Shown here one piece after another: positions 31,505 to 34,536 of a stretch of 64,000 bases of DNA. Location: NCBI RefSeq assembly GCF_019303535.1, contig NZ_JACCIU010000001.1, positions 744,001 to 808,000 on the forward strand. The letters run 5' to 3'. The notes under the pieces are model-generated. The model was not told the origin of the DNA, ran no database searches, and was given only the letters and a program-made list of their open reading frames with translations. Position 1 is the first letter of the stretch; each line of letters starts with the position of its first letter. Made by a program: the position numbers and the translations under genes. Source of the stretch: Lactobacillus sp. Sy-1. GTDB taxonomy: Bacteria > Bacillota > Bacilli > Lactobacillales > Lactobacillaceae.

Positions 31505-31888
31505 ATGAGTTACCGTAAATTACAACGCACAAGTGCTCATCGTCGTTCATTACTTCGTAATTTAACCACTGAACTACTAATCAATGGTCAAATTAAGACT
31601 ACTGAAGCACGTGCTAAAGAAGTTCGCTCAACCACTGACAAGATGATTACTCTTGGTAAGCGTGGTGATCTTAGTGCTCGTCGTAAGGCTGCTGCATTCT
31701 TACAAAACGTAATTGCAGATGCTAAGCAAGATGGCGACACTGTAACCGTTCAAACTGCTTTACAAAAGCTTTTTGATGATGTTGCACCTAAGTATTCCGA
31801 CCGTAACGGTGGATACACTCGTATGTACAAGACCATGCCTCGTCGTGGTGATGGTGCATCAATGGTTATTTTACAATTAGTTGACTAA
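31505..31888 (+). CDS. rplQ: 50S ribosomal protein L17
   Basis: L17 lies near the tunnel exit and ends the alpha operon. The 127-residue protein begins [28 protein letters not shown] precedes the ATG. A long structured 3' element follows. Confidence 0.98.
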
Positions 31889-31913
31889 TTGTTTATAATT
31901 TCATAATTAAATG

Positions 31914-32020
31914 AAATCACTAGGGTTAGTAATATAGAACGTTATGATGATGGGAGTCCCGAGTCTAGTTCGAATGTAGATCGCTATCTATGCATTACTA
32001 ACCTGTTAGTGATTTTTTTA
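31914..32020 (+). ncRNA. L17 downstream element-like structured 3' UTR and terminator
   Basis: AAATCACTA (31914-31922) pairs with TAGTGATTT (32007-32015). Immediately inside, GGTTAGTAAT (31924-31933) pairs with ATTACTAACC (31994-32003). The 60-nt interior contains further pairing potential. The outer stem runs into seven T, so the whole fold can terminate transcription. A conserved Lactobacillales motif called the L17 downstream element is known at this position, and this almost certainly represents it. Its function is unknown. Confidence 0.75.
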
Positions 32021-32058
32021 TACATAAATTTATATTAAAATAGAATTGAGGGATTATT

Positions 32059-32898
32059 ATCAACGATTTCATTATTAAGGTTAACCATCTAAAATATAAA
32101 TATTCGGATGCCAATGAATATTCACTTCAAGATGTTTCCTTTAACGTTAAACGGGGCGAATGGTTATCCATTATTGGTCATAACGGAAGTGGGAAAAGTA
32201 CCCTAATTAGTGCTCTAGATGGACTAATTGAAATCAATGGTGGTTCAATTGAAGTTGACTCAGTTCGTTTAACTCCAGCAACCGTATGGGATATAAGAGA
32301 GCAAATTGGGCTAGTTTTTCAAAATCCCGATGATCAGTTTGTTGGTGCCACTGTCGAGGATGACATTGCTTTTGGTCTTCAAAACCGTAAAATTGATCAT
32401 GATAAAATGCATCAAATTGTCGACCAAGCACTTGAATTAGTGAATATGATGAAATTTAAATATAAATCTCCCTCAGATTTATCTGGTGGTCAAAAACAAA
32501 GAATTGCATTAGCTGGAATCATTGCTTTAACGCCTAAGATTATTATCTTGGATGAAGCAACAAATATGCTAGATCCAGTTGGTAAAAAACAAGTACTGTC
32601 CGTGATTAGGGAACTAAAACAACGTTATAGCCTAACGGTTATTTCAATTACCCATGATGTTAATGAACTTAAGTTAGCAGATCGGATATTAGTATTAAAT
32701 GATGGAATCGTGGTTGCTGAAAATCGTCCGGAAGAGATATTCAATCAACCTCAAAAGCTACTCAAATTAGGCTTAGAATTACCATATTCAGAACAAATTA
32801 AGTGGGAATTAAGTCGTTTTGGAGTTGATATTCCTGAACATTACATGAATGAAGGAGCATTTATAGAATGGATCAAGCAATTTCCTTTAAAGAAGTAA
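32059..32898 (+). CDS. ecfA1: ECF transporter ATPase EcfA1, non-canonical start codon
   Basis: EcfA1 is one of two ATPases energising vitamin and metal ECF transporters. Walker A GHNGSGKST lies at residues 40-48, the signature LSGGQKQR near residue 141 and Walker B IIILDEA near residue 163. In this frame a TGA at 32047 is followed by no ATG, GTG, TTG or CTG until codon 117 at 32407, beyond the P-loop. GAGGG at 32048-32052 points to ATC at 32059 or ATT at 32056 as the start, giving a normal length of about 279 residues. Either initiation is non-canonical or the N-terminus is damaged. It overlaps ecfA2 by 31 bases. Confidence 0.85.
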   Translation: MNDFIIKVNHLKYKYSDANEYSLQDVSFNVKRGEWLSIIGHNGSGKSTLISALDGLIEINGGSIEVDSVRLTPATVWDIREQIGLVFQNPDDQFVGATVEDDIAFGLQNRKIDHDKMHQIVDQALELVNMMKFKYKSPSDLSGGQKQRIALAGIIALTPKIIILDEATNMLDPVGKKQVLSVIRELKQRYSLTVISITHDVNELKLADRILVLNDGIVVAENRPEEIFNQPQKLLKLGLELPYSEQIKWELSRFGVDIPEHYMNEGAFIEWIKQFPLKK

Positions 32899-33749
32899 GC
32901 TATTTATACCAACCCGATACGCCATTTGAATCCAAGGCATTAGATCAAGTTAGTTTTGATGTCGATAATGGTGATTTCATTGCTTTAGTTGGCCATACTG
33001 GGAGTGGCAAATCAACTTTGATTCAACAAATTAACGGATTATTATTACCCACTTCTGGTTTTGCAAAGATAAATGATATAATTCTTAATGCTAAAACCGC
33101 AATCAAGCAAGTTTACGAATTACGGAAGCGGGTCGGAATTGTATTTCAACAACCGGAAACCCAGTTATTTGAAGAGACGGTTGAAAAAGATATCGTTTTT
33201 GGACCCCGTAATTTTGGGGTTCCAGCAGCAGAGCTTCATCAACTGGCGATTAATAGTATTAAACAGGTTGGGTTAGATGCTAAGTTACTCAATCGTTCGC
33301 CCTTTGACTTATCTGGAGGCCAAATGAGACGGGTTGCAATTGCCGGAGTGTTGGCTTCCAAACCCGATGTTTTAGTTCTAGATGAGCCAACTGCTGGTTT
33401 AGATCCCAAGGGGCAACTAGACATTATGAATTTGGTGAAGAGCTTGAATCAAAAGGATAACGTAACCGTAGTTTTAGTTACTCACCAAATGGAAATTGTT
33501 GCTAAGTTTGCAAAGCAGGTAGTGGTCCTTAATCACGGACAGTTAGCTTTTAAAGGAACTCCACGTGAATTATTCAAAAATCAAGACCTGCTAACTAAAA
33601 TGAGTTTAACTGCTCCCGAAACGGTACAATTTAACGATCAACTTAAGGCTACGGGAATTAATCTAGGTGGTTTTCCATTGACTCCTGCTGAGCTTACTGC
33701 TGAATTACTTAATAAAATAAATTTTAAAATGAGTGATGATAATGAATAA
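32868..33749 (+). CDS. ecfA2: ECF transporter ATPase EcfA2
   Basis: This is the second ATPase of the ECF energising module. Walker A GHTGSGKST lies near residue 42, the Q-loop FQQPETQLFEETV near residue 97, the signature LSGGQMRR near residue 148 and Walker B VLVLDEPT near residue 168. At 293 residues it is full length. The start lies inside ecfA1 with GAAGGAG upstream, and ecfT overlaps its end, so the three are translationally coupled. Confidence 0.97.
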   Translation: MDQAISFKEVSYLYQPDTPFESKALDQVSFDVDNGDFIALVGHTGSGKSTLIQQINGLLLPTSGFAKINDIILNAKTAIKQVYELRKRVGIVFQQPETQLFEETVEKDIVFGPRNFGVPAAELHQLAINSIKQVGLDAKLLNRSPFDLSGGQMRRVAIAGVLASKPDVLVLDEPTAGLDPKGQLDIMNLVKSLNQKDNVTVVLVTHQMEIVAKFAKQVVVLNHGQLAFKGTPRELFKNQDLLTKMSLTAPETVQFNDQLKATGINLGGFPLTPAELTAELLNKINFKMSDDNE

Positions 33750-34536
33750 ATTACTACTGGGTCGCTATATTCCAGGAAACTCAATCGTTCATCGAATGGA
33801 TCCAGCTTCTAAAATATTACTATCGATTTTCTTTGTGTTTATTATTTTCTTTGCTAATAATTTAGTTACTTACGGGTTAATGACGTTATTAGCATTAGTA
33901 TCGGTAGTCGCATCTAGAACATCGCTTAGGTTCTTTATTAGGGGAATTAGGCCCTTACTATGGGTGATTATTTTTACGGTAATTATTCAAATTCTATTTG
34001 ATAACACTGGCCATCAACTCTTTAAATTTTACTTTCTAACAGTAACTGATAATGGATTAAAGACAGCTGGTTTTATCTTTATAAGATTTTTGCTAATTAT
34101 CTTTTTCTCCACCGTACTAACGTTGACTACCGATCCGTTAGCAATTGCTTCAGGAATCGAAAAACTGCTGATGCCGTTGAAAAAAATTAAGTTTCCCGTT
34201 TACACAATGTCGCTAATGATTTCAATTTCACTTCGCTTCGTTCCGACGTTAATGGATGAGACAGAGACGATTATTAAGGCACAGAGTTCGCGGGGGGTAA
34301 AATTTAAAGAGGGGAATATTCTTGCCCGGTCAAAGAAAATGATTCCGATTTTAATTCCGTTGTTTATTAGTTCTTTTAAGCATGCTGAGGGTCTCGGTAG
34401 GGCAATGGAAGCTCGTGGATATAAAGACGGTGATAATCGAAGTCAATACCACGTTTATAAAGCAAGTAAAATTGATTTTTGTACCTGGGCGGTATTTATC
34501 ATATCAGGAATATTAATTTTTGTACTTAGGGGGTGA
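33742..34536 (+). CDS. ecfT: ECF transporter transmembrane subunit EcfT
   Basis: EcfT is the membrane scaffold that couples EcfA1A2 to exchangeable substrate-binding S-components. The 264-residue protein has several hydrophobic helices. It also has the two coupling-helix Ala-Arg-Gly-type motifs, SSRGVKF near residue 190 and MEARGYKDG near residue 223. I chose the ATG giving MNKLLLGRYIPGNS. In-frame GTG and ATG codons up to three codons earlier are possible. It overlaps ecfA2 by eight bases. Confidence 0.95.
   Translation: MNKLLLGRYIPGNSIVHRMDPASKILLSIFFVFIIFFANNLVTYGLMTLLALVSVVASRTSLRFFIRGIRPLLWVIIFTVIIQILFDNTGHQLFKFYFLTVTDNGLKTAGFIFIRFLLIIFFSTVLTLTTDPLAIASGIEKLLMPLKKIKFPVYTMSLMISISLRFVPTLMDETETIIKAQSSRGVKFKEGNILARSKKMIPILIPLFISSFKHAEGLGRAMEARGYKDGDNRSQYHVYKASKIDFCTWAVFIISGILIFVLRG

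Follow-up and report, generated by a model that had tools for sequence, protein, structure and literature searches.

A probable ATC start codon of ecfA1 in Lactobacillus sp. Sy-1 and a congener

The ecfA1 locus and its open frame

The window, i.e. the whole stretch of 64,000 nucleotides from Lactobacillus sp. Sy-1 that was analysed, contains ecfA1, the gene for one of the motor subunits of a vitamin importer. The genus, one of the lactic acid bacteria, has received little study. ecfA1 lies behind rplQ and is followed by ecfA2 and by an ecfT-like gene for the transmembrane subunit (Table 1). The name rplQ is presumptive, given on the basis of the sequence, and it agrees with the match to the L17 downstream element (L17DE) behind the gene. 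This match falls within a long terminator-like hairpin with a T run, which was not reported by a simple terminator scan; the region 31900-32080 folds with -37.9 kcal/mol (z -2.12) and is 90% identical to that of the congener. In Lactobacillales and Listeria, L17DE is described as lying 3' of L17 genes and as a possible means of feedback on L17 (PMC2864571). On the strand of ecfA1, one promoter-like match of 11/12 ends ahead of the hairpin, at 31899, and two of 9/12 end just before the start, at 32046; there are six such matches on both strands as against 1.9 in shuffles, consensus matches being weak evidence.

Table 1. Features of the ecfA1 region and further genes considered for isoleucine-codon starts (positions without prefix are those of the window; prefixes C1 and L are our own contig and locus handles)
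Feature	Position	Strand	Description
rplQ (ribosomal protein L17)	31505..31888	+	ORF; upstream gene
Long hairpin with T run, terminator-like, contains L17DE	31913..32019	+	fold; bounds approximate
L17DE (RF01708)	31936..31996	+	32.2 bits, below gathering score of 37; E 0.00057
Extended Shine-Dalgarno-like site AGAA-UU-GAGGG	32042..32052	+	identical in congener; predicted duplex -9.4 kcal/mol in both species
ATC, probable start codon of ecfA1	32059..32061	+	ATC at congener column; canonical starts near column in 58/58 others
ecfA1	32059..32898	+	279 codons and stop; TIGR04520 351.8 bits, curated cut-off 315
ecfA2	32871..33749	+	ordinary ATG inside ecfA1 (stop 32896-32898); TIGR04521 372.7 bits, cut-off 330
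ecfT-like gene, transmembrane subunit	33742..34536	+	CbiQ family TIGR02454 82.7 bits, under cut-off 111.8; behind ecfA2
rimM	C1:1061868-1062392 (L097:13868-14392)	-	Ile codons in both species; no canonical start for 23 codons
lexA	C1:906181-906813 (L089:18181-18813)	-	ATT in Sy-1, ATC in congener; strong ribosome site
Glycosyltransferase	C1:820804-822039 (L085:12804-14039)	+	ATT in both species
rsmF	C1:1055177-1056634	-	start column TTA in Sy-1, TTG in congener; single-species case
recG	C1:1074976-1077006	-	ATC in congener, GTG ATC in Sy-1; single-species case

The stop-to-stop frame of ecfA1 (32050-32898) follows an in-frame TGA at 32047-32049 and opens with GGG ATT ATT ATC AAC GAT (GGG 32050, ATT 32053, ATT 32056, ATC 32059). 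The first-pass annotation of this DNA had pointed out that no ATG, GTG, TTG or CTG follows this stop until 32407, past the P-loop, and our analysis confirms it: the first in-frame codons of these types are ATG 32407, GTG 32440, TTG 32548 and CTG 32596, and the Walker A motif GHNGSGKS, which starts at 32176, precedes them all. The chance that a single gene contains 116 codons without ATG, GTG or TTG, which make up 5.3-5.5% of codons, is about 0.0014-0.0019; we do not regard this as decisive on a genome-wide scale, and would place the weight on the congener, which has the same absence and the same ATC. The coding sequence had also been described as otherwise intact and of a normal length of about 279 residues, and this too holds. 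Counted from ATC 32059, the product has exactly 279 residues, the frame is free of internal stops, and all motifs are present and intact (Walker A at residue 40, signature at 141, Walker B at 161, H-loop at 197). The protein scores above the curated cut-off of TIGR04520 and below that of the narrower NF010156 (375.3 against 392). Residues 3-274 of the best-scoring solved chain, EcfA1 chain 4huq_B, align to residues 3-274 of the Sy-1 protein with zero offset, so that ATC 32059 occupies the place of residue 1 in the solved relative; the two are alike in length (279 residues) and register, and the difference lies in the start codon of the Sy-1 gene.

The start region in the congener and in other relatives

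The genus is represented in our sample by two genomes, Sy-1 and one congener, whose EcfA1 proteins are 74% identical. Alignment with relatives, which the first-pass annotation had proposed as a check, shows that the congener, too, has ATC at the column of ATC 32059, and that no ATG, GTG or TTG occurs in its frame until a TTG at residue 23. This TTG corresponds to CTT in Sy-1, a start there would drop the first 22 residues, and an internal start for ecfA1 is unlikely. In-frame stops are found at a short distance upstream of ecfA1 in both species, which leaves no room for a longer form of EcfA1. A canonical start (ATG, GTG or TTG) is present within 15 codons of the column in all 58 other relatives and in neither of the two members of the genus, in a table that comprises one top-scoring match per genome from 60 genomes and leaves out 12 further genomes of the genus of G014, another genus of Lactobacillaceae. 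A contig search for relatives of ecfA1 returned six loci, the best with 50% identity, none of them named as Lactobacillaceae. On the simplest reading, the canonical start of ecfA1 would have been lost in a derived event common to the genus.

The near-cognate codon is accompanied by a ribosome site in both sampled genomes of the genus. The Shine-Dalgarno-like GAGGG at 32048-32052 noticed earlier is indeed present, and we would now read it as part of a longer site composed of AGAA (32042-32045) and GAGG (32048-32051), which agrees with AGAAAGGAGG at 8 of 10 positions, the match to the Shine-Dalgarno core being GAGG only. The site, AGAATTGAGGG, is identical in Sy-1 and the congener, and its predicted duplex energy (Table 1) was computed with a presumed 16S tail. 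The spacer between site and ATC measures 6 bases in Sy-1 and 7 in the congener, and the intervening codons differ. Folding in the vicinity of the start does not exceed that of shuffled sequences.

These differences help to choose among the isoleucine codons. The first-pass annotation had suggested initiation at either ATC or ATT; non-canonical initiation is supported, and comparison with the congener narrows the choice to ATC 32059. Both ATT 32056 and ATT 32053 are in frame and close to the ribosome site of Sy-1, but the congener has TTA and CCA before its ATC at the places of these two codons, with no in-frame ATT there, which makes a start at either of them improbable. Two further isoleucine codons common to both species, ATT 32071 and ATT 32074, count to some extent against ATC 32059, though they lie at least 18 bases from the ribosome site.

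The absence of a canonical start could also mean that ecfA1 is a decaying gene without any usable start. The NG86 comparison of the two species over 279 codons yielded dN 0.171 and dS 1.458, and a dN/dS of about 0.12, which is a rough value as dS is near saturation. By this measure ecfA1 is under purifying selection, and it would be surprising if a gene that lacks a working start held dN so far below dS. With no stops in the frame, intact motifs, and ecfA2 and the ecfT-like gene following in order, decay is very improbable. We give even less credit to an error in base calling or assembly by which an ATG or TTG would have been missed. ATC is one base away from ATG and other genera do have ATG, GTG or TTG near the column, but the congener shares this ATC although the sequence around it differs, and an identical double error is unlikely; error or damage, which the first-pass annotation had named as the competing explanation, thus loses ground to the second species and to dN well below dS. 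Hardly credible at all is initiation at TTG 32046 in another frame with a subsequent shift into ecfA1, since the 10-codon TTG frame does overlap the ecfA1 start, but the TTG lies at -13 in Sy-1 and at -14 in the congener, and the shift required would differ.

We conclude that ecfA1 of this genus is very probably an intact gene beginning at the near-cognate ATC at 32059, and that this start is, in all likelihood, genuine and durable, a feature of a known but uncommon kind.

Candidate isoleucine-codon starts of other genes

For a wider view, 335 non-overlapping pairs of conserved ORFs from 464 kb of Sy-1 and 480 kb of the congener were compared. In four of them (ecfA1, rimM, lexA and a glycosyltransferase gene) the start column is occupied by isoleucine codons in Sy-1 and the congener alike, a rough count, as false frames are among the pairs and weak cases escape the screens. 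The names rimM, lexA, glycosyltransferase, rsmF and recG were given on the basis of the respective sequences and are presumptive. A first screen, for pairs in which both members show at least 20 conserved codons ahead of the first canonical start, returned five pairs, from which ecfA1 and rimM were accepted; on visual inspection, the other three resemble antisense or rRNA frames or frames extended upstream. A second screen, for an isoleucine codon with a ribosome site in both species, gave 12 matches among the 335 pairs. Here rimM, lexA, rsmF, the glycosyltransferase gene and recG were kept as candidates, six matches were set aside by eye as having an ordinary start or being unconvincing, and one, at 858096, belongs to neither group. 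ecfA1 itself, detected by the first screen, falls just below the summed site score (4 + 4) of the second.

Canonical starts prevail in the tabulated relatives of these genes. For rimM they are found in 28/28 other genomes (the table omits 11 of 41 matching genomes), and likewise for lexA in 28/28 (7 of 37 omitted), the ribosome sites of lexA being GAGGAGGTG and GGGGGTG; lexA of Sy-1 has a GTG three codons further in. For the glycosyltransferase gene, ATG, GTG or TTG stands at that very column in 18/18 others (3 of 23 omitted), and a GTG three codons upstream, at the ribosome site, is a rival start. rsmF has a canonical codon at the column or at most two codons away in 15/15 others, in a table of 17 of the 20 matching genomes; that of recG omits 5 of 25. 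As a separate observation, a presumptive hslV-like frame (C1:1010369-1010914) is open from its start in Sy-1, but its counterpart in the congener starts some 30 residues further in, which may be due to a frameshift there.

As a control, G045 and G058, members of another genus from a different family of the order, were compared over 106 pairs. The first screen found no pair and the second three matches: a presumptive ccdA-like gene, a gene that has an ordinary ATG start, and a third match, at 2023338. The ccdA-like gene (L244, G045:C1:2008561; L258, G058:C1:2062157) has ATC behind AAGGAGG and GAGGAGG in the two species, which convinces us as a probable common ATC start. When Sy-1 was compared with G014 (same family, other genus) over 81 pairs, the first screen returned two Sy-1 genes, ecfA1 and another that has an ordinary ATG start, besides a spurious frame on the G014 side, and the second the glycosyltransferase gene and one ordinary gene.

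A broader proposal, compatible with the ATC start of ecfA1, is that the genus has an unusual abundance of isoleucine-codon starts due to lax initiation, for instance through a Lys to Thr replacement in IF3. The four pairs out of 335, together with the single-species cases rsmF and recG, speak in its favour, as does IF3 itself, where Sy-1 and the congener (L071, L072) have Thr in a column occupied by Lys in 29 and Ser in one of the 30 aligned relatives (out of 39 outside the genus); we assume this column to be Arg116 of E. coli. We favoured this reading until the G045/G058 control, which gave a similar rate of at least 1/106, so that 4/335 offers no ground for a special trait of the genus. Moreover, a search with a presumed stem pattern detected, per genome, two anticodon stems of initiator-type tRNA in their usual form (GGGCTCATAACCC, in tRNA clusters) and no altered initiator tRNA. 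We now treat lax initiation as a genus trait only as a rival, and an unlikely one. infC, whose start column in the genus is also an isoleucine codon, was put aside as ordinary, with ATA in 28, ATC in 2 and ATT in 2 of 32 infC regions inspected by eye; throughout the order, infC repeatedly has an isoleucine codon at its start.

It is doubtful, though conceivable, that roughly 1% of the conserved genes in some Lactobacillales have AUC or AUU starts preceded by a ribosome site and that these genes (ecfA1 for vitamin uptake, lexA for the SOS repressor, rimM and rsmF for ribosome maturation) form an IF3-responsive set missed by gene finders. ecfA1, rimM, lexA and the others suggest that isoleucine-codon starts merit a systematic count.

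Proposed initiation at ATC and comparison with known systems

For the preferred start at ATC 32059, we propose that extended Shine-Dalgarno pairing (AGAA and GAGG), 6-7 bases upstream, would place the 30S subunit with AUC in the P site, where the initiator tRNA would read AUC by two good pairs and a third-base mismatch, giving a protein with the N-terminus fMet-Asn-Asp-Phe. We infer that the cell does initiate at AUC, presumably with low efficiency and in an IF3-sensitive manner, which would cap the synthesis of EcfA1. Low output is plausible by analogy with other such starts, and EcfA1 may be the limiting subunit of the ECF module for this reason. The ATG of ecfA2 lies within ecfA1, therefore low translation of ecfA1 could also reduce EcfA2, and coupling may lower both rather than unbalance the pair. 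Because the ECF module serves many vitamin carriers, a weak start on this ATPase could fix the total capacity of vitamin uptake. IF3 is reported to exclude weak third-position codon pairs in vitro (PMC10158994). The C-C pair at the third position of AUC should be weak, so that very little EcfA1 might be made. Gene finders limited to ATG, GTG and TTG would either truncate ecfA1, leaving out Walker A, or call the gene broken.

In titles and abstract openings, among the matches listed and with few subscription journals covered, we found neither an ATC start of ecfA1 nor isoleucine starts in Lactobacillaceae. The class of isoleucine-codon starts is already known; ecfA1 as a member is new. infC is reported to start with ATT in E. 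coli and with ATC in Streptomyces, and sigR with GTC, and IF3 represses such starts (PMC5472188); ATT is likewise given as the start of infC in B. subtilis (PMC6097659). ecfA1 resembles infC of E. coli and Streptomyces in its near-cognate start with a third-base mismatch, so that ATC has precedent, but infC is self-regulating and such a loop is not evident for ecfA1. The pncA gene of Borrelia burgdorferi is described as starting with AUU, and databases still give a shorter protein (PMC13398362). Like ecfA1, it is a metabolic gene with a non-canonical start; its start has genetic, biochemical and crystallographic support, whereas that of ecfA1 is backed by sequence comparison. In S. aureus, infC and ccpN are reported to start with AUA and cvfC1 with AUU, with extended Shine-Dalgarno sites, and AUU and AUA starts to yield about 10% of the AUG output in poor medium, and ccpN up to 30% in rich medium (PMC13009471). 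ecfA1 differs from these cases in having AUC, in encoding a transporter ATPase, in its short Shine-Dalgarno core (GAGG) and in the source of its evidence, which is sequence comparison, but it shares with cvfC1, ccpN and infC of S. aureus an isoleucine start codon, an extended Shine-Dalgarno site and conservation between species.
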